The notes below the pieces were generated by a model. It was not told the origin of the DNA. It searched no databases and saw only the letters and a program-made list of their open reading frames with translations. Shown here one piece after another: positions 398 through 19,704 of a stretch of 64,000 nt of DNA; the first letter of the stretch is position 1; the number at the start of each line of letters is the position of its first letter. Source of the DNA: Brevibacterium iodinum ATCC 49514 (GTDB taxonomy: Bacteria > Actinomycetota > Actinomycetes > Actinomycetales > Brevibacteriaceae); assembly GCF_900169265.1 (NCBI RefSeq), contig NZ_FXYX01000018.1, forward strand, positions 1-64,000, given 5' to 3'. A program made the position numbers and the translations under genes.

Positions 398-3300
398 TCA
401 CTCCAGCCCAGGGGTTCCCGGTCCAGGTGCATCCGGTGCCGTCATCGTGCCTTGCCCGACTATGTCTGTTCTCAGTGTTGCAGATTTCCGGTCGTTCCTC
501 TGTGCGTTCACCATCATTTCCGTGGTTACGCCCTTCTCGTGTGGATTCAACCCATGTGGTGGCATAGACGGAATTCCCTGCCTCAACCCCTCCACGTCGG
601 CCAGGCCGAACGCTGCTCGCGGACTTTCGGTCCTCCATTTCTCAACGATCTCGTTCGTTTCACCTCCACGCAGACACGCTTCGACTTTCATTGCCGACTC
701 CTGTGGCAGTTCGCTTAACGCTTCTCGCATCGACTTCCAACGCGCTGTGATCAACTTCTTCTCAGTCGCATCGAGACGGCTGTAAATTTCCTCTCCCAAT
801 GCGGCCCCCCTCATATTCTTTCCAAGCCGTTCATTCGCTTCGGCGTTGCCTGCCGTGAAACGCTCCACCGCTCCCTGATAGTCCTCTACCGCGTTTTGTA
901 ACCGTTTCGTGGATTCTGTGTCGACCGCGGGGAGGTATCGCACCGCCTGCACCATGCGCTCGATACTCGCCTGATCTGCCCGACGAAACGCATCGCTTCC
1001 GACAATGGCCTGTCCATGCCCCGGCAACCGTTCGTCCACGTACCGTTGCAACACGTTGAACGAAGCGACACGTGCTTCCCGAGCCTCACGGATCATCTCC
1101 ACGGCACTCTCTCGCGCTCTCGCCGCTTCAACTGCTCGACGGGCCTGATCACTGTTGTCCTGCAACTGGCTCGCGACCACGAACCGTTGGCGTGCTTCGT
1201 CCAGCAGCTCCTCTACTTTTCGCGTGCCGTTCCAAAATCCGTCAGTGGCGCTGGCTCTCTCCATCGGGTCTTTCACCCTCTCATTCAGAGTTCCCAACTC
1301 CGACACTAACTGTGTCAATGCCTGCTCTGACTTCGCCTGTGCTTCTGCTTCTACCCCCGCGTGCTCGTTCGGATAATTTGTAGCAGCATATTCGGAGTCC
1401 CGTTCCGCATTCTTGCCACCAACTTCTAATGATTCGCGTGCTGGCCGGTCTGACGTCTCGCGCTGCTTCTTCCGGTCTTCTTCCGCCTGCATCTGTTTGA
1501 TCTTCCGATCAATTTCTGCCAATCGTGACTGTGCATCTTCGAGTTCCTCCGCGTGTTTGAACGGTTTTCCGAGCTGTCCGTCGACACTTTCCAGAATGGA
1601 TTCGGCTTCCTCACGATTCTTCAGGAGCCGTTCCTTCACGCGGTCGAGACCGCTGATCTTGTTCTCAATCAACTGCGCAACGTTCCCACCGACTTCGCTT
1701 CTCTCGTCGAGAACGGCTTCGTAATCGAGTTCGACCTGAACCGAGTCGGGGTGAGCTCCGGTGTCGGCTGGTGTCAGCAGAACCTTTCGCTCCATCTTTT
1801 CGTTGAAGTCGAAGCTCATGTCGACAATGAATCCGCCCATCTCAATACGGTTTCCTTCACCATTGATCATTCCTCCCCCTGGCCGGGAGGTCGAGCGAAT
1901 CAATCCCAGGATCGCTTCCGAGGTGTCTTTTCTGTCTTCATACCTCGTGCCGGCGACCGTTGCTTGGAAAGAATCGCCCCGAGTGTCGATACGTCGAGCG
2001 ATCGCGGCTTCCACATCGGGTAGACGCTTTGCCACCTGTTCGAGCCGTTGTTCTGCTGAGCTACGGCGGTACTTCAATGCGGCTTGTGCCTTGTCGTGGC
2101 CTCGTGCACGCCGTGACAGTTTCTGAACGGTCACGTCCAACTCGGTGCGCTCCACGAGCAGAGGGTTGCCCGATGACCCGGCCATCATCTGTTGTGCATC
2201 CAATGCCAGATCGCCGGGGTCATCGAGTTCGCGCACGTCCAATCGTCCTCGCATCACCTGCGAAATCGCGGTCGCTTTTCGTCCGATGATGTCCCATGAG
2301 GTCGAGTCGAACGTGTTCTCCGTTGCGTACCGGTAGATCTGGACCTCGTCATTCTGGTTGCCTTGACGCAGAATTCGACCTTCACGCTGTTCCAGTTGGT
2401 CCGGTCGCCAGGGGCAATCAACGTGGTGCATAGCAATCGCTCGGGCCTGAATGTTTGCGCCAGTTCCCATTTTCTGGCTCGACCCGATCAGCACGTCGAC
2501 CCGACCCTCTCGCGCGGCTTTAAACAGCTCGGCTCGCTGCTCATCGTCTTTCGCGTCGTGGATGAACCGAATTCGGTCTCGCTCCATACCGTGTCGTGTC
2601 ACCAAGTCCGACTTCATCTGGTCGTAGGCGTTCCACTCGTCATCGTTCGGGGTCGACAAGTCACAGAACACGATCTGGAATGCACCCCTGTTCTCCGAAA
2701 CTTCCGCGGTTCCTGGAACCAGGTATTCGTTGTCCCGGTTCTCCCGCCAGATCGAGGCCACGCGGCGAGTGACATAATTGATCTTTACGTCCCCGCTGAA
2801 TTCCTCGCCAACCATCCTCGGGTCGAGGGCGACTTTCCGCCCGTCGTTATACACCGTCAGATGATTGTCTGCTCCTTTCTCGGGCCGACCGCTCAGTCGG
2901 TCCAACCGTTCTTCGAGGTATTCCATGTACTTAGCGTGAGTCTCCGTTCGCGGGATGATCACCATTTCCGGACGACGCTCCCCGTCACTGTTGACCGCCT
3001 GGTCCGGCACCGGCAGATTCAGATCTTCACTCCGTCGAACGTCTGCGAACTGCTGCCAGGAGGACAACATCTCCGGCACATTCTTGAACTTCGCGAAACG
3101 TGTCCGCTGCTTCAGTCGGCCCGCAGCATCTCGCTCGATACGGGTCACTGTCTCCCCGAACGTCGAACCCCACTGATCGAACGATTTCACTCCCGCGTCC
3201 TCCAACAGATCCGGTCGCAACAATTTCGACATCACGTGAGCTTCGCTGATCGAGTTCGCAATCGGTGTTCCTGTGGCCAGTGTCACGACACGCTCACCAT

Positions 3301-6300
3301 ATGTGTCCCGCAGGTAGCCAATCTTCATCTCCAGATCAGTAGCCTTCTGCGACCCCTCGATGAACGCTCCTGCAATTGATGTTGGTGTGTGCAGGTTCTT
3401 GTACTCGTGTGCTTCGTCCACCGTCAAGTAGTCGATGCCGGTGTCTTCGAACGACAGATTCGTCTCATCGGCCTTCGCAAGTATCTTTTCCAGACGCGCT
3501 TCTTGCGTCTTCTTCGCCTTTTCGATGTTCTTCACTGTTCGGTTGTTGTCCCGGCCAGTCGCTTCTTCCATAGCAACTCGGGCCTCGTCCAATTCGGCCG
3601 TGATATCTCGGAAGTAGTTTTTCGCGGTGTCGGGTTTCACACCCAGCAGCCGGAAAGCTGAGTGAGTCATGATGATGCCGTCCCACTCTCCAGTTGTGGC
3701 TTTGGCAATGAACGCTCGCCGTGCGTTGAGATTTCCTCCTTTCGCGGCCACATCGTCACTGCCTGCTGACAGCAACTTCGCATTGGGATACATCTCCTGC
3801 CACTCTCGCGTGAACTGCTCCAGCATGTGTCCGGGTACAAGCACCGCCGGTTTCGACACCAGCCCTCGCCGCTTGAGCTCCATCATTCCCATCACCGCAG
3901 CACCGGTTTTACCAGCACCCACGACATGGAACAGTCCCACCGCCGGCTCGGCAATGATTCGCGCCACTGCCGTCTTTTGATGTGGGTGCGGGACATAGTC
4001 ATCAACTAGTCCGGGCAACTTCAGTCGCTCCGCTTCTGGTTCGTAATCGCGGGGCACCAACGAATTGAACCGCCGGTTGTACTCAGCCACCAGACGCTCG
4101 GACCGTTCCGGGTCTTCCCACACCCAGTCCTCGAAACGCTCCACGATTTCGTCGGCCTTCGCTCTCGCCGCTTCTGTCTCCGTAGCGTTCAACACTCGAG
4201 TTTTGTCTTCGAGAGTGTCCATGACTGTGATTTCTGCTCCGGACAGCAACTTCCGGTAAATGTCATAGACCGGCATCCTCTCTGTTCCCCATTGAGATGC
4301 AGCCTCGACCGTGCGCCTGCTACCACCATGCTCGACTTCCCAGAACCCAGCGCCAGCCTTATGCACCTTTGCCAACCTGTCCTGTGCAATATCGCGCAAG
4401 AATCTTTCGTGGTCCTCTGCCGGAATCCATACCGCACCAATCGTTGGGGTAATGTCTTCCAGCCCAATGGGCTCGGGGATGACTTTCTGCAGCTCTTGAA
4501 CGTTAACCTTGTACCGGTCATCGCCTTCAGCCTCTCTTTCAGCAGCCTCCAGCTTGGTCCGAACGTTCCCTGAAAGATACTCCGCGCGCGTAGCCAGGCG
4601 AGCCGTTTCAGGATCGTCGAAGACCAGAGCACCGAGTTCCGCCCGTGCTGTATCTTCGTCGGTGCCCAGCAGATTCGCGATACGGTCGAGTTCCGCCCGT
4701 CCGCGAGCATCCAAGCACAGTCCCAGGGCTTCTTCTGCCGTGTCCGCTCCCAGCAAAGGACGATTCTGCTCCACCGTTCGCTGATGCAGCACATCGGCTG
4801 CCACCGCTTCTTCGGTCTCGTCGTTATAGATCTCAAGGGCCTTAGTGAGTGACCACAATGGGTCATCTCGCATAATCTTCGCGGGGGTCGGGTCGACACG
4901 CACTTGCACTCGGACTCGCTCTTTTTCGCCCGTGTCATCATTCCGCACGATCTTCGTCTGCCAGCGCGTCCGGTGCCGGTTGATCGGGCCGAATCTCTCT
5001 ACGTGTTTCGCCCACACCTCTCTCGTTTCTTCTCGCAGAGCCACGAGTTCTTCCGTATCGACAGGTGTTGCGACTTGGCCCTCGATCAAGGCCGATGCCC
5101 GGTCGCGTAGATCCATCAATGATCGGACTTCGTCCATTGCGTTTTTCGGAACCTTGACCTCGACGGTTTCTCCGTCGATCACGCGCACGAAACTCTCGGG
5201 TTCGCGCTCCAACAGCGTTCCTGGCCACTGTCCTGGATTCAGATCCACGGCGACTGACTGTTCACGTGCTGCCAGGACCTCGGGGCTTGGGGCCACATAC
5301 GTCCGTCCCCGTTCCTCGGCGGCATCGACTATCGCCGCCAGTCTGTCCCTCAGCTGCTCCGGCACAGCGGCGAGGTTGTCGGTCTTCACATCGATCTGTG
5401 TGTCACGGAAGGTGGATATCTCGAGTTCGCCCAGCACGTTCTCGGGGTGATCTTGGAAATACCGGTTCAGCAGTAGCCGGCCACCTGCATTCCCGATCTG
5501 TGTCGGGGTCGACTTCACCCACCGAAGTGTCTCCGGGGTTGGTTCTTCGCCCTCCATTCGTTTCCGGAACACGAGCACGTCCGTGACCACTTCTGTCCCG
5601 GCAGTACGTCGATGTGTCCCGTTCGGTAGTCGCACCGCGCCAAGCAGGTCTGCCTCGCGGCTGATTTCGGCCCGGAACGCCGGGTTCTGTGAGTCCATCG
5701 TGAACGCTGACGTCATCATCACGCCGATGCCGCCTTCGTGGAGCCCTCCGACTGCTTTTCGGATGAAGTAGTTGTGGATTGAGAATCGTTCGCCGGGGTT
5801 CCACGATGGGTCGAAGACAGGGAAGTTGCCGAACGGCACGTTCGCTATTGTCGCATCGAACTGGTCGGGGCGGACCAGAGTTTTTCCGAACGACTCATTG
5901 CGTACCTCGGCGTTTGGGTACAGGTATCCGGCGACCTGAGCTGAAATCGGGTCGAGTTCGATTCCCACCATGTCCATCGAGTCCGGAGCGGTGCCGATGA
6001 AGTTGCCCGAGCCACATCCTGGTTCGAGAACCTTGCCCTCGTTGAGACCGAGCTTCTGAAGTGCTGACCACATCTCCCCCACGATGGCCGGTGCCGTGTA
6101 GTGGGCATTAATGGTGGTTGCTCGGGCCGCTTCCCACTCGTCTTCTGTCAGAAGTTCCCGTAGCTGTTCACGCTCGGCAGCCCAGTTGCTCTTAGTCTCA
6201 TCGAACACATCAGCAACAGCGCCCCAGGATGACCACCCGGCCAACACTTCCTGATCTTGTCCGGTCGCGGTCCGCCCGGTCTCGGTCAGTGACCGGACGC

Positions 6301-6964
6301 GCTCAATTGCGGCCACGTTCGCTTGGAAGCGAGCTTTCGGGCCGGACGGAACATACTCCTCGCCCATGTCCATGCGGAACACCGGCCCGGTCACTTCCTG
6401 TCCGTCCCCGCCGTCCGCTTCTTCCTGGACATGCGAAGTGTCCGTGACCGGTCCCTCCTTTTGTCCGGTCACGGACACTTCTACGGTGGGTGATGCATCG
6501 ACTCCGTTTGCCGGGGTCAATCCTCCAACGGAGTCCCCGTCTCGTCGACCTCCGGTGGATACCGATCCAGAACGACCTCTTGCCAGGCCACTTCCTCGGC
6601 CTGCTTCCGGTTCGCCCGGCTCTTGCCCATCAGCAGCAACGGATTCGCTCGTTCCTCGTCCGTCGCCTGCTTCCCCTCCGGCTCCAGCTCTGCGATCACC
6701 TCCGACCTCCTCGTCACGTATTCCTCGAACATCGCCGCGTAGTGCTCGTCCGGGTTCTGGATAGTCTGTGCTTTCGTCGGGGCGAACGTCTCCACGTACT
6801 CCCGAATCCTCCGGCCCTCGGCCATTGCCCTCACCTGCTCCTGCATTCTCTCCTGGCTGCGCTACCAAATTCTCTTTGACGCTCAATACTGGCTGTACAT
6901 CACTCTCTTCCGAGAAGATGAGGTCGAACAACCCCTCAGAATCATCGAATCCTTTTTCTGCCAT
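398..6964 (-). CDS. DarB-like giant N6-adenine methylase / SF2 helicase (putative antirestriction)
   Basis: This 2,188-residue protein joins a DNA methyltransferase and a helicase. The methylase has the SAM motif LEPGCGSGNF near residue 313 and the catalytic-type motif NVPF near 375. The helicase has Walker A VGAGKTG near 1014, a DEAH box (TVDEAHEYKN) near 1180 and motif VI QREGRILRQG near 1528, followed by a long helical tail. The size and order match the DarB family (phage P1 DarB protects incoming DNA from type I restriction) and related proteins of conjugative elements; that role here is inference. A good ribosome-binding site (AAGGAAG) supports the start at 6964. Residues 40-149 are Gly/Arg-rich and overprinted by another coding-like frame (6517-6846), so the true start could be internal, for example at 6373. 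Confidence 0.85.
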   Translation of the reverse strand: MAEKGFDDSEGLFDLIFSEESDVQPVLSVKENLVAQPGENAGAGEGNGRGPEDSGVRGDVRPDESTDYPEPGRALRGDVRGIRDEEVGGDRRAGAGGEAGDGRGTSESVAADGQEPGEPEAGRGSGLARGRSGSVSTGGRRDGDSVGGLTPANGVDASPTVEVSVTGQKEGPVTDTSHVQEEADGGDGQEVTGPVFRMDMGEEYVPSGPKARFQANVAAIERVRSLTETGRTATGQDQEVLAGWSSWGAVADVFDETKSNWAAEREQLRELLTEDEWEAARATTINAHYTAPAIVGEMWSALQKLGLNEGKVLEPGCGSGNFIGTAPDSMDMVGIELDPISAQVAGYLYPNAEVRNESFGKTLVRPDQFDATIANVPFGNFPVFDPSWNPGERFSIHNYFIRKAVGGLHEGGIGVMMTSAFTMDSQNPAFRAEISREADLLGAVRLPNGTHRRTAGTEVVTDVLVFRKRMEGEEPTPETLRWVKSTPTQIGNAGGRLLLNRYFQDHPENVLGELEISTFRDTQIDVKTDNLAAVPEQLRDRLAAIVDAAEERGRTYVAPSPEVLAAREQSVAVDLNPGQWPGTLLEREPESFVRVIDGETVEVKVPKNAMDEVRSLMDLRDRASALIEGQVATPVDTEELVALREETREVWAKHVERFGPINRHRTRWQTKIVRNDDTGEKERVRVQVRVDPTPAKIMRDDPLWSLTKALEIYNDETEEAVAADVLHQRTVEQNRPLLGADTAEEALGLCLDARGRAELDRIANLLGTDEDTARAELGALVFDDPETARLATRAEYLSGNVRTKLEAAEREAEGDDRYKVNVQELQKVIPEPIGLEDITPTIGAVWIPAEDHERFLRDIAQDRLAKVHKAGAGFWEVEHGGSRRTVEAASQWGTERMPVYDIYRKLLSGAEITVMDTLEDKTRVLNATETEAARAKADEIVERFEDWVWEDPERSERLVAEYNRRFNSLVPRDYEPEAERLKLPGLVDDYVPHPHQKTAVARIIAEPAVGLFHVVGAGKTGAAVMGMMELKRRGLVSKPAVLVPGHMLEQFTREWQEMYPNAKLLSAGSDDVAAKGGNLNARRAFIAKATTGEWDGIIMTHSAFRLLGVKPDTAKNYFRDITAELDEARVAMEEATGRDNNRTVKNIEKAKKTQEARLEKILAKADETNLSFEDTGIDYLTVDEAHEYKNLHTPTSIAGAFIEGSQKATDLEMKIGYLRDTYGERVVTLATGTPIANSISEAHVMSKLLRPDLLEDAGVKSFDQWGSTFGETVTRIERDAAGRLKQRTRFAKFKNVPEMLSSWQQFADVRRSEDLNLPVPDQAVNSDGERRPEMVIIPRTETHAKYMEYLEERLDRLSGRPEKGADNHLTVYNDGRKVALDPRMVGEEFSGDVKINYVTRRVASIWRENRDNEYLVPGTAEVSENRGAFQIVFCDLSTPNDDEWNAYDQMKSDLVTRHGMERDRIRFIHDAKDDEQRAELFKAAREGRVDVLIGSSQKMGTGANIQARAIAMHHVDCPWRPDQLEQREGRILRQGNQNDEVQIYRYATENTFDSTSWDIIGRKATAISQVMRGRLDVRELDDPGDLALDAQQMMAGSSGNPLLVERTELDVTVQKLSRRARGHDKAQAALKYRRSSAEQRLEQVAKRLPDVEAAIARRIDTRGDSFQATVAGTRYEDRKDTSEAILGLIRSTSRPGGGMINGEGNRIEMGGFIVDMSFDFNEKMERKVLLTPADTGAHPDSVQVELDYEAVLDERSEVGGNVAQLIENKISGLDRVKERLLKNREEAESILESVDGQLGKPFKHAEELEDAQSRLAEIDRKIKQMQAEEDRKKQRETSDRPARESLEVGGKNAERDSEYAATNYPNEHAGVEAEAQAKSEQALTQLVSELGTLNERVKDPMERASATDGFWNGTRKVEELLDEARQRFVVASQLQDNSDQARRAVEAARARESAVEMIREAREARVASFNVLQRYVDERLPGHGQAIVGSDAFRRADQASIERMVQAVRYLPAVDTESTKRLQNAVEDYQGAVERFTAGNAEANERLGKNMRGAALGEEIYSRLDATEKKLITARWKSMREALSELPQESAMKVEACLRGGETNEIVEKWRTESPRAAFGLADVEGLRQGIPSMPPHGLNPHEKGVTTEMMVNAQRNDRKSATLRTDIVGQGTMTAPDAPGPGTPGLE
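6435..6481. repeat. Perfect 17-bp inverted repeat with a 13-base loop
   Basis: The arms at 6435-6451 and 6465-6481 are exact reverse complements. In the minus-strand transcript the loop carries an AAAGGAGG sequence. It lies inside the methylase-helicase coding region, between the end of the overprinted frame and possible internal starts. There is no U-run after it, so it is not a standard terminator. Confidence 0.85.
6517..6846 (-). CDS. Overprinted 109-codon frame inside the methylase-helicase gene
   Basis: This frame is shifted by one base relative to the giant gene and begins MQEQVRAMAEGRRIREYVE. Its codons are strongly G/C-rich in the third position and give a normal charged helical protein. 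The giant frame over the same bases reads as Gly/Arg-rich low complexity, which is what an out-of-frame reading usually looks like. A GGAGAG motif precedes the ATG and an in-frame TAG lies just upstream, so the frame has a defined beginning. It may be a nested gene, or the real product of this stretch if the helicase starts downstream. I recognise no family. Confidence 0.55.
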   Translation of the reverse strand: MQEQVRAMAEGRRIREYVETFAPTKAQTIQNPDEHYAAMFEEYVTRRSEVIAELEPEGKQATDEERANPLLLMGKSRANRKQAEEVAWQEVVLDRYPPEVDETGTPLED

Positions 6965-13350: not shown

Positions 13351-15333
13351 TCAGAACATCGTGATCGACGGTTTGTCCGCCGAGTCCTCATTGCTCGGCT
13401 GTTCGTCGTCGGTCTTCGCCTCCGGCTCCTGCCGGACCTCGCCTGTGGCTTCGTCAGTGTCGACGACTTCGCTCGCGACAATTTCTCCGTCTTCCATCGA
13501 GCCGAGGTGCTTCTCCCAGGAGTCTTCCTCTCCCTCGTCGAGGAGTGACTGTGCGTACAGCTTCTTCGTCATGTTGATTTCTTCTGCGTACTTCGACTTC
13601 CAGTACGGGGTCAGCTTCATCAGCATGGGACGGTTGTTCCGGAAAAACACGACAGCCCAACCGAAAGGCAGGCGGTGCAGCTCCGACACCTCAAAGACCT
13701 TCTTTTCATGAAGCTGGTCTGAAACGCTCGACCCATCTTTCTGCCGTGTCTTTGACGAGCGCACCACTTCACGCTGGCCTGCCAGTGTCGACAGCACTTC
13801 GAGGTCTTGGGTGTTTGACGCGCCTCCGAGCTGAATTTTCACAGTCGCTGCGTCGAAGATGGCTGACGCCGCTTGCTCACCCCACGAGTTCCGTACCTGC
13901 GCCATGGACTGGAACACCGCCATCACGCAGATACCGACACCACCTCCATCAGCCATGAGAGGTACAAGGCCTTCCCACGCCTTGGTGATGTTCGCGATCT
14001 CATCGAGGACCAACATCATCGGCGGGTCGAGACGGTTGCCCTCGCTCTTGGCTGCGATTTCACGTGCCCGTTCTGTGATGGCGTCCATCATCGCCACGAG
14101 GAATGGTCCGGCCGAGGATCCGCCCGTCTTGGTTCCCACGATGTACAGGGTGCCCGATTTCTGGATGAATTCATCGATGTTGAATTCTTCGTCCTTGGTC
14201 TTCGGATTCATCACGTCGCGCACGTTATCGACGCTCAGTCCTCCGACTGCGTTCGCGACTCCGAACCACTTGTTTGTTCGCATTTTCGGGTCCGACTCGA
14301 TTTCGGATTCTAAACTGGTTGCCCAACCACGGGCAGCACGACCTGCTTCTTCGTGCTCTCGCAAAATTTTCACTGCGTCTTTAGCTTCGGCGGGAGAAGT
14401 GCCCCATTTCATGAGCGTGTCGACGCCTTCCCCGGCCAGGGCACACGCGTGAAGTAGTGCCTGCATGATGCCGATTGCTGGTGGTCGCCACTCCGAATTC
14501 GACGAATCTTCGCTCAGACCGGCAGCCGACACCAACGACGTTGCACGCTGGTTCGCCACTCGTGCCGTCTCGCACCCTGTGATAGGTGACCATTTAAGTG
14601 TTGTCGGCTTCCCCGTCAGTCCCTGCGGGTCGAACAGTGTCACCGGCCCCCGCTTTGCGCGGATCGCCGCTGTCATTGCGTAGTTGTCAGCCCGTGAGGA
14701 CGTCGTGATCACTGGCCCTGGGGCGTCGATGATCGCCTTGACGAGAATGTTCACGCCTTTACCGGACCGTGGTGGCCCGATGAACACGATTGATTCCTCG
14801 AGAGCGATCCACGACTGAATACCCTCGGAGTATCCGAATTCAATGTTCGCTTTCTCCGGTAGCGGCTTCTCTTTCAGAGTTGGTCGCACCTTCCCGACCA
14901 CCTTGACCGCAGCCTTGTGCCCCATCGCCTTATTCACTTCACGACGCTTCGCTACACCGCGCCGTTCCCGAAGCCTCTTGACGAAGTACCCATCTGATTC
15001 CAAATACTCCCGGTACTTGATCACGCCCACAATGGCCCCGGAGACGACCAGGATAAGTGTAATGACCCACACGGTCACAATTGCGCCGCCGGGTGCGGCG
15101 CAACCCTCTGTTGTCTGTCCGAACACCGATGCATCCCCGGTGCCGAAGAAACTGAACACGTCGAACACACCAGAAGGTGCTGCCCAAGCCCCGCACGCAA
15201 TCCTGTTCACGAGCATCGCCGCACCCGTCAACAAACCCAGGACTCCGATCAAGCCGCCCACGATATAGAGGATGATGTCTTCTCGGGACGTCGCCGTCAT
15301 CTGGTTCTCCCGCTCTTGGAAAAGTCCCATCAC
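13351..15333 (-). CDS. VirD4/TraG-type conjugative coupling protein
   Basis: This 660-residue protein has two N-terminal membrane segments (about residues 22-45 and 83-105), a Walker A motif IGPPRSGKG near 185 and a Walker B motif MMLVLDEIAN near 430, followed by a TraM-recognition-like region and an acidic tail. Type IV coupling proteins pump the relaxase-DNA complex into the secretion channel at the inner membrane. It overlaps the VirB4-like gene upstream. The start is either the GTG at 15333 (GGAAAGG at good distance) or the ATG at 15330. Confidence 0.9.
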   Translation of the reverse strand: MMGLFQERENQMTATSREDIILYIVGGLIGVLGLLTGAAMLVNRIACGAWAAPSGVFDVFSFFGTGDASVFGQTTEGCAAPGGAIVTVWVITLILVVSGAIVGVIKYREYLESDGYFVKRLRERRGVAKRREVNKAMGHKAAVKVVGKVRPTLKEKPLPEKANIEFGYSEGIQSWIALEESIVFIGPPRSGKGVNILVKAIIDAPGPVITTSSRADNYAMTAAIRAKRGPVTLFDPQGLTGKPTTLKWSPITGCETARVANQRATSLVSAAGLSEDSSNSEWRPPAIGIMQALLHACALAGEGVDTLMKWGTSPAEAKDAVKILREHEEAGRAARGWATSLESEIESDPKMRTNKWFGVANAVGGLSVDNVRDVMNPKTKDEEFNIDEFIQKSGTLYIVGTKTGGSSAGPFLVAMMDAITERAREIAAKSEGNRLDPPMMLVLDEIANITKAWEGLVPLMADGGGVGICVMAVFQSMAQVRNSWGEQAASAIFDAATVKIQLGGASNTQDLEVLSTLAGQREVVRSSKTRQKDGSSVSDQLHEKKVFEVSELHRLPFGWAVVFFRNNRPMLMKLTPYWKSKYAEEINMTKKLYAQSLLDEGEEDSWEKHLGSMEDGEIVASEVVDTDEATGEVRQEPEAKTDDEQPSNEDSADKPSITMF

Positions 15334-18546: not shown

Positions 18547-19704
18547 TCACCTTCCACCTGTCACGAGTCGGCGCCCGGCTCGGGCTGTTCCACCGACTGA
18601 CTTCTTCACCACGCTGGTGCTTCCTCGGACCACTCGCTGTCCGGCCTGGTTGATGCCTCCATAGACGCGGCGCTGTCCTGCCATTGCGTAGTTACCTGCT
18701 GTCTGTTCAAGCATTCGTGCCGAGTCTGGGGTCATGAACGAAATGATGCTGATCATCACGATGGGCATCGCGGCCGAGATGATCACCAGGACCACTCCAG
18801 CTGCCATCTGAACCCAGTCAGAGCCGATGGATGCCATCGTGATGCCGAATTTGGTGACTGCTGCGGCAATTGGCTTCGCCATGAGCAGCGCCACCACCAA
18901 GCTCGCCCACTTCGAGGCGATGCCTTTAGCTGCATCCCACGACATCGCGAACACTCCCACCGGAGTGAACATCGCCAGCACGAGAACGATCACGGTGCGG
19001 AACAGCATCATCAGCATCAGTGCCAGGCATGACAGTAGAATTACGCCCGATACGAGCCATGGCAGGATGGACTGGCCTACCTGATCGGTCCCGGTTGCCA
19101 TGGCCCAGATTTCGTAGCCTGCGTCGACCTGGACTCCCCCGTCACCGTTATTCGCTGACGGGTCCCACCACAGTCCGAATAGCCGCAGAATGCCGCCGAC
19201 ACCAACATCATCACCACTGGTGTCGCCCTTGCCCACTTCCAGAATCCATTGCGCTAACTCGTCAGTTCCGACCAGTCCCAGGTACACAAGGCCGGCGCAG
19301 ATGTAGGTTGACGGGACGGCCAGCACTGCGGAGGCAAATGCGCGGAGCATTCCTGCTGTTGAAGACCGGTAGATCGACATGAAGATCTGGATTGCGAGGA
19401 AGATGATGAGGAGCGGCATCATGGCGATCACCATGACGTTGAGCATTCCTGGGTATTCCACGGTGTGCTGGTAGGCACCGCCCTGGTACACCTCAACTTC
19501 TCCACCGATGACCGCGATCCACCAGTCGGATCCCCCGCCTTCTGGAGTGAACGATCCCACTCCAAACGCACCTTTGAGGAACTCCCAAGATGCGATTGCG
19601 AATCCGTCGATTGATTGCTGGATCAGGGCCTGGATCGACTTTCCCCAGTCTTTCCAGGGACCGTCGAGAAGCCCTCCCCAATCATCTTTCTTCGCTAGAT
19701 ACAT
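18547..19704 (-). CDS. VirB6/TrbL-like polytopic membrane protein
   Basis: The 385-residue product has about seven hydrophobic segments between residues 88 and 325, including a run around VMVIAMMPLLIIFLAI and another near LPWLVSGVILLSCLAL, and ends in a basic Gly-rich tail. This topology fits the VirB6/TrbL channel component of type IV secretion. The gene lies between the small membrane proteins and the SCO6880-like gene, as in other actinobacterial loci. AAAGG upstream supports the ATG at 19704. Confidence 0.75.
   Translation of the reverse strand: MYLAKKDDWGGLLDGPWKDWGKSIQALIQQSIDGFAIASWEFLKGAFGVGSFTPEGGGSDWWIAVIGGEVEVYQGGAYQHTVEYPGMLNVMVIAMMPLLIIFLAIQIFMSIYRSSTAGMLRAFASAVLAVPSTYICAGLVYLGLVGTDELAQWILEVGKGDTSGDDVGVGGILRLFGLWWDPSANNGDGGVQVDAGYEIWAMATGTDQVGQSILPWLVSGVILLSCLALMLMMLFRTVIVLVLAMFTPVGVFAMSWDAAKGIASKWASLVVALLMAKPIAAAVTKFGITMASIGSDWVQMAAGVVLVIISAAMPIVMISIISFMTPDSARMLEQTAGNYAMAGQRRVYGGINQAGQRVVRGSTSVVKKSVGGTARAGRRLVTGGR

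Follow-up and report, generated by a model that had tools for sequence, protein, structure and literature searches.

Evidence for a TnpV-like gene nested within giant DarB-like methylase-helicase genes of actinobacterial mobile elements

Two open frames on one strand in Brevibacterium iodinum

The DNA analyzed here, referred to as the window, is a stretch of 64,000 nucleotides from Brevibacterium iodinum ATCC 49514 (contig NZ_FXYX01000018.1). It contains a giant methylase-helicase gene, within which a much shorter frame is open on the same strand (Table 1). The nested frame is the +1 frame of the giant gene and is located entirely inside giant codons 40-149, and both frames have the coordinates given in the first-pass annotation, which had also remarked on the G/C-rich third positions and a plausible ribosome-binding site of the nested frame. 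The GC content at nested codon positions 1, 2 and 3 is 0.67, 0.39 and 0.83, respectively, and the third frame across the overlap contains 4 stops. The AGGAG ahead of the nested gene is separated from the ATG at 6846 by 3 nt, which is a short spacing. A second in-frame ATG is found seven codons later, at 6825, with an AGGAG 12 nt upstream. This codon is ATG also in three related copies (L002, L003 and L004), two of which (L002 and L004) have GTG as the first nested codon. The true nested start may thus be either 6846 (109 aa) or the good alternative at 6825 (102 aa).

Table 1. Features of the nested frame, its host gene and nearby genes in the window.
Feature	Position	Strand	Remarks
Nested gene, TnpV-like small helical protein	6517..6846	-	109 aa; homologues, selection, AlphaFold2 model
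AGGAG, ribosome-binding-like site ahead of the nested ATG	6850..6854	-	Sequence
Giant methylase-helicase gene, DarB-like polyvalent protein	398..6964	-	2188 aa; phrog_10089, Helicase_C
Giant-only N-terminal peptide, 39 codons, MAEKGFDDSEGLFDLIF...	6847..6964	-	5' of nested gene; giant-frame conservation
Overprinted Gly/Arg-rich linker, giant residues 40-149	6517..6846	-	Giant frame open in 33/33 places with both genes
Remaining giant linker, nested stop to conserved core	6380..6516	-	Core alignments begin near giant residue 196
TraG/VirD4-type coupling protein gene	13351-15333	-	Near giant gene
TrbL-like protein gene	18547-19704	-	Near giant gene; barely above its cut-off

The giant protein is matched by the family phrog_10089, "DarB-like antirestriction", over residues 73-2107 (1287 bits). 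Among Pfam domains, Helicase_C was found above its cut-off, and Methyltransf_25 and SNF2 below theirs, so that the profiles place a methylase and an SNF2-type helicase in one protein, which defines the DarB-like group. The neighborhood, with predicted TraG/VirD4-like and TrbL-like genes, is as in a conjugative element.

The probability that either frame is open by chance was estimated by permuting synonymous codons, holding one protein fixed and scoring the other frame for stops. In the window, the nested frame was open in 9.1% of the shuffles that preserved the giant protein (permutation p=0.09), and the giant frame in 1.1% of those that preserved the nested protein. Long open frames are frequent in GC-rich DNA, and the window contains 116 of at least 150 aa on both strands. 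From the window alone, the length of the nested frame is unremarkable and the single-sequence case is weak. Because the window by itself barely exceeds chance expectation, the decision must come from relatives.

Relatives of the nested gene in genomes and plasmids

Of 99 near genomes, eight contain a match to the nested protein; one of them is its own genome, and identity in the other seven is 42-78%. The first-pass annotation had stated that frequent nested-frame stops among close homologues would speak against a nested gene; no internal stop was found in these matches. A profile built from these matches identified 13 of 396 genomes of the order, and a broader profile 17 of 396 genomes of the order and 14 of 394 genomes of the class. 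Ten weak order-wide profile matches, some of them within long open frames, raised a suspicion of false positives, which was rejected, since all ten are located at a giant gene.

The searched genomes contain homologues of the nested protein in 35 places, counting the window and also L039, in which the nested start could not be placed. In 33 of these, the nested frame is intact within the 5' end of a giant gene and in a constant relative frame (+1). The giant frame is open from 5' of the matched stretch past the nested stop in all 33 places that have both genes. The two homologues outside the overlap are L040 in genome G516, an extra TnpV-like copy directly 5' of the giant gene and in tandem with the nested copy L036, and L054 in genome G201, a classical standalone TnpV with no giant gene seen within 3 kb. 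The overlap occurs under at least 11 different family labels, all of one class, and the identity of the window copy with the more distant nested members is 19-27%. The third frame carries stops in all of the 32 loci tested (L045, identical to L044, was left out of this set and of the 45-locus set described below, and L066 and L008 are one locus). Under GC-rich codon usage, the relation between the nested and giant frames is therefore the feasible one. One locus, L030, was considered as an exception to this frame relation and rejected, as a reading of all three frames revealed the usual overlap. Its giant gene is frameshifted in the core, 3' of the intact overlap, either by a sequencing error or by decay.

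Searching with the giant core instead, we recovered 22 loci in 21 of the 396 genomes of the order, of which 17 have a nested gene that is detectable by profile. The five others comprise L059, which has a TnpV-like nested gene, L056 and L060, in which a different long +1 frame is open at the same position, and L057 and L058, where the giants have no N-terminal linker and no long +1 open frame was seen. Just 5' of the linker-less giant gene at L058, a repeated translated motif (PAHAGVN, PRMRG) is suggestive of a CRISPR-like repeat array. The nested protein of the window gave no match in viral contigs together with two relatives, and none in phage records together with one relative. Nor was the nested protein of L059 matched in plasmids.

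Another nested protein (L049) matched 60 plasmid records by tblastn, from Arthrobacter, Streptomyces, Nocardia, Kocuria, Micromonospora, Rhodococcus and other hosts, and several of the plasmid copies are already annotated as "TnpV protein". We compared 17 plasmid records, picked for variety among the matches. A full overlap is present in 13 of them. In three Streptomyces megaplasmids, the TnpV-like gene and the giant gene adjoin with their ends touching; here, the giant frame closes inside the TnpV-like gene, and the giants are homologous. In the remaining record, from Thermobifida, the TnpV-like gene is followed by just a 48-residue stretch resembling the start of the giant core. Annotations of the 13 overlapping records differ. 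Nine retain the small gene and a shortened giant that starts 3' of the nested gene (by RefSeq or the depositors), two annotate both genes as overlapping in part, and the last two (B. spongiae and P. aurescens pTC2) give the giant its full length and lack the nested gene. The overlapping records thus expose a fault of annotation.

Other states of the locus were also observed. At L062 and L063, the giant open frame ends early and the nested TnpV is intact, and at L071 just a short stretch resembling the start of the giant core follows the TnpV-like gene. In Streptomyces and Actinacidiphila megaplasmids (L064, L070, L072, L075 and L076), the giant gene beside the TnpV-like one carries a UvrD-helicase annotation and spans about 26-30 kb (e.g., NZ_CP108308.1 204804-234710), which corresponds to about 9,000-10,000 residues.

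The nested protein of the window has no match in Pfam (PF14198, TnpV, included) or NCBIfam and a weak one in PHROG (E 0.2). An AlphaFold2 model based on five sequences predicts an all-helical protein (mean pLDDT 87.8, pTM 0.77); sequence and fold searches against the PDB with the nested protein gave nothing usable, with no fold match at E < 1.8. Among 18 TnpV-like members, two passed the PF14198 cut-off of 27 bits (L059 with 36.9 and L017 with 27.2), 10 matched below it and six, including the window, had no match. One member, L021, scored higher to PilO, with 21.6 bits, slightly under the PilO cut-off. In the reciprocal direction, the profile of the nested family identified the standalone frame in G201 (E 3.1e-4), which is itself a TnpV with 159.8 bits. 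A search with the PF14198 profile gave no match in 59 relatives and none in its 14 control genomes either, and is thus uninformative. On these profile matches, that is, through L059, L017 and the classical TnpV, the nested family is assigned as divergent TnpV-like. The first-pass annotation had suggested a new small gene nested in the methylase-helicase gene: the nested gene is borne out by homologues, selection and ribosome-binding sites, and the novelty is not, since it belongs to no new family.

Constraint on the two frames and their likely starts

In 14 of the 16 pairs compared, differences within the overlap were most common at nested codon position 3, which is position 1 of the giant codons (the exceptions are L001/L005 and L032/L035). 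We also classified changes by their effect in both frames, using nine close pairs that share no locus (1099 codons; rates uncorrected for multiple hits). In the overlap, dNN/dSN was 0.315 (bootstrap 0.258-0.380) for the nested frame and dNN/dNS was 1.17 (0.93-1.47) for the giant frame. In the control, for which a fictitious +1 frame was scored in DNA that encodes the giant alone (8 pairs, 3156 codons; L063 was excluded because its giant frame ends early), the corresponding values were 0.95 (0.82-1.12) and 0.21 (0.18-0.23). The constraint therefore shifts from the giant to the nested frame over the overlap. The nested frame is under purifying selection beyond that imposed by the outer frame, while purifying selection on the outer frame inside the overlap is absent and openness alone is kept. 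This is the opposite of selection on the giant frame only, the pattern that the first-pass annotation had set against a nested gene when it proposed such a dual-frame comparison.

Openness was assessed by permutation across 32 loci. With nested proteins and codon usage held fixed, 48.5 giant-frame stops were expected and none was seen. In the nested frame, 51.5 stops were expected and none was internal, an outcome to which the use of the nested protein for finding the loci contributes.

Signals for translation initiation were scored in 45 loci, all picked for having the overlap (the 32 genome loci, 12 plasmid loci and L059). Of the 45 nested starts, 41 have a match of at least 4 nt to AAGGAGG ahead of them, as compared to 11.6% of 692 control codons (ATG or GTG in the nested frame further down the giant gene), and 20 have a match of at least 5 nt, as compared to 1.4% of the controls. 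Two of the nested starts (L026 and L039) were scored at a non-start codon, and without them the count for at least 4 nt is 39 of 43. Matches of at least 4 nt were fewer at the N-terminal starts of the giant gene (26 of 43).

The giant-only N-terminal peptide has 46, 27 and 103 differences at giant codon positions 1, 2 and 3, respectively (305 codons, pooled from 12 pairs of which some are interdependent). Between the nested stop and the core, the giant frame lacks any ATG, GTG or TTG in 20 of the 31 loci with a core located by motif; eight of these have no start codon in the overlap either, and 12 have one inside the overlap. The window has six possible giant starts 3' of the nested stop, the best of which has a Shine-Dalgarno match of 3 nt. 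At L038, the giant frame has no ATG, GTG or TTG 5' of the nested gene, and at L036 it has only a TTG. The giant frame is most simply taken as read through the overlap, because stops are lacking against an expectation of 48.5, the N-terminal peptide is conserved and downstream starts are scarce. The upstream start of the giant gene is thus probably real. Taken together, these comparisons demonstrate purifying selection on the inner gene and on the N-terminus and core of the outer gene, with the outer frame kept open through the inner gene, and we infer that both proteins are translated.

Against this stands the explanation that only the nested gene is real, with the giant gene starting downstream and the upstream open frame being a by-product of high-GC codon usage. 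The giant frame is indeed the stop-poor one when the nested third positions are G/C, as the stops of the third frame in every locus tested illustrate. It also has no residue-level constraint in the overlap, it has no upstream start codon at L038, and it was annotated with a start 3' of the nested gene in 9 of the 13 overlapping plasmid records. Fixed codon usage nevertheless leaves the dozens of expected stops unaccounted for, the peptide upstream is conserved with the codon periodicity of the giant frame, and two thirds or so of the loci (20 of 31) offer no start before the core. We regard a downstream start as unlikely for the family, and this judgement is less firm for the window taken alone. 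The suggestion in the first-pass annotation that the first 150-200 giant residues are a spurious extension accordingly lacks support in the family, in which the peptide is conserved, the frame is open in 33 of 33 places and downstream starts are scarce.

A programmed +1 frameshift, by which ribosomes would pass from the giant N-terminal peptide into the nested frame and produce a peptide-TnpV fusion and no separate protein, would need exactly the frame relation that is observed and a conserved N-terminal peptide. It is very improbable, since ribosome-binding-like sites precede 41 of the 45 nested starts, and since the window and L006 have a nested-frame stop at most six codons before the nested start. 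That only the giant gene is real and the nested frame is open by chance in GC-rich DNA can be practically dismissed. The permutation value for the window alone and its 116 long open frames would allow it, but the nested protein is conserved at 42-78% identity without internal stops, its dNN/dSN is 0.32 as compared to 0.95 in the control, and TnpV homologues occur outside the overlap and in side-by-side copies. Conservation and selection thus led us to reject a chance frame; with the comparative evidence added, the nested frame is, as judged from the alignments, far more than chance. That both frames are real genes is, in our assessment, highly probable.

Origin of the overlap and relation to known systems

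The outer gene would encode a DarB-like polyvalent methylase-helicase consisting of a short conserved N-terminal peptide, a disordered-looking linker and the enzyme core. A small helical TnpV-like protein would be encoded in the +1 frame by the inner gene, with translation beginning at a separate start codon that is served by an internal ribosome-binding site. This small protein would dictate the sequence of the shared stretch, in which the outer protein would need just stop-free DNA. Because TnpV exists without the giant gene and the giant linker is without residue constraint, the simplest reading is that the giant start moved upstream through an older, neighboring tnpV. The overlap may couple the expression of the two genes, and both proteins may act on the DNA of the element during or after conjugative transfer, the giant protecting it from restriction and TnpV having an accessory role. 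We consider the chances of a functional partnership between the two proteins to be about even.

A tree of giant cores, rooted at its midpoint and with several long branches, places the three Streptomyces megaplasmids with adjoining genes within the nested group (82/91); L063, in which the giant frame ends early, and L030, the core of which had no blastp match, were left out. This tentatively suggests that the overlap is older and was then lost in the trio.

The linker may also host other genes. At L060 (genome G411), the nested frame at 2189-2725 has no match to TnpV, and it has a homologue in another genus (L081, 32% identity over 170 residues) that is standalone, contains stops in the frame that a giant gene would need, and has no giant gene within 3.5 kb as far as seen. 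At least one unrelated gene thus appears to sit in the same slot. The frame at L056 (1118-1801, 228 codons) has G/C-rich third positions and is nested in a related giant gene (G190); it has no relative in 98 other genomes and is unproven as a gene. By permutation, the openness of the frames is significant for L056 and L060 (p values of 0.009-0.047) and is not for L059 (about 0.5 in both directions). Tentatively, and with a probability that we would set a little under even, the linker is a general overprinting slot: the giant start would have wrapped around whatever small gene lay 5' of it, adding a selected N-terminal peptide, perhaps a clamp tether, on a long flexible arm. Unrelated genes would then have been enclosed independently, TnpV-like ones in most of the lineages seen, another at L060 and possibly one at L056.

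The consensus of the sliding-clamp-binding motif is QL[SD]LF, which we take the giant N-terminal peptide often to resemble. The pattern Q[LM][SDE][LFI] is present in the first 40 giant residues of 21 of the 45 loci, whereas shuffling gave 0.4 on average and never more than 3. In the group of the window, the peptide reads EGLFDLIF and the Q is missing. A role as a sliding-clamp tether is a guess from this resemblance, and a literature query for the clamp motif gave no match in the one open-access library searched.

Both families are known, and the nested arrangement is undescribed in the literature searched. None of the matches listed for open-access literature on TnpV, DarB, bacterial overprinting and nested actinobacterial genes describes the overlap in its title or the beginning of its abstract. 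To our knowledge, long same-strand nested genes that are kept across a bacterial class are rarely documented. The same dual coding is found in mobile elements of many actinobacterial families, and this speaks for both frames being real. Since diverged copies number in the dozens and are accompanied by side-by-side counterparts and standalone homologues, the system allows a direct study of how an overlap is born, what it costs and how it is lost.

As in the methylase-helicase dyad of phage P1, DarB, a single giant protein encoded on a mobile element combines an adenine methylase with an SNF2-type helicase, and P1 DarB is described as protecting transferred DNA from restriction (PMC5512222). The N-terminal peptide and the overprinted linker are features of the actinobacterial copies compared here, P1 DarB being considered by its description only; the term "overlap" does not occur in the main text of that paper. 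In a paper on Arthrobacter plasmids (PMC6305408), overlapping genes are mentioned elsewhere and the word "helicase" does not occur. The inner gene resembles TnpV (PF14198) of Tn4451-type mobilisable transposons, to which the nested proteins of L059 and L017 match above the cut-off. For TnpV of Tn4451, a role in excision has been postulated from its homology with lambda Xis (PMC3158075). In the C. difficile elements described in the same source, TnpV is encoded by separate genes in elements with large serine recombinases, whereas here it is located fully inside another gene. Two reading frames on one stretch of bacterial DNA have likewise been reported in E. coli (PMC4683798, PMC5810103, PMC9927249). 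Those cases are, by their titles, mostly antisense and in one instance of recent origin, whereas the frames compared here are on the same strand, fully nested and spread over at least 11 family labels.
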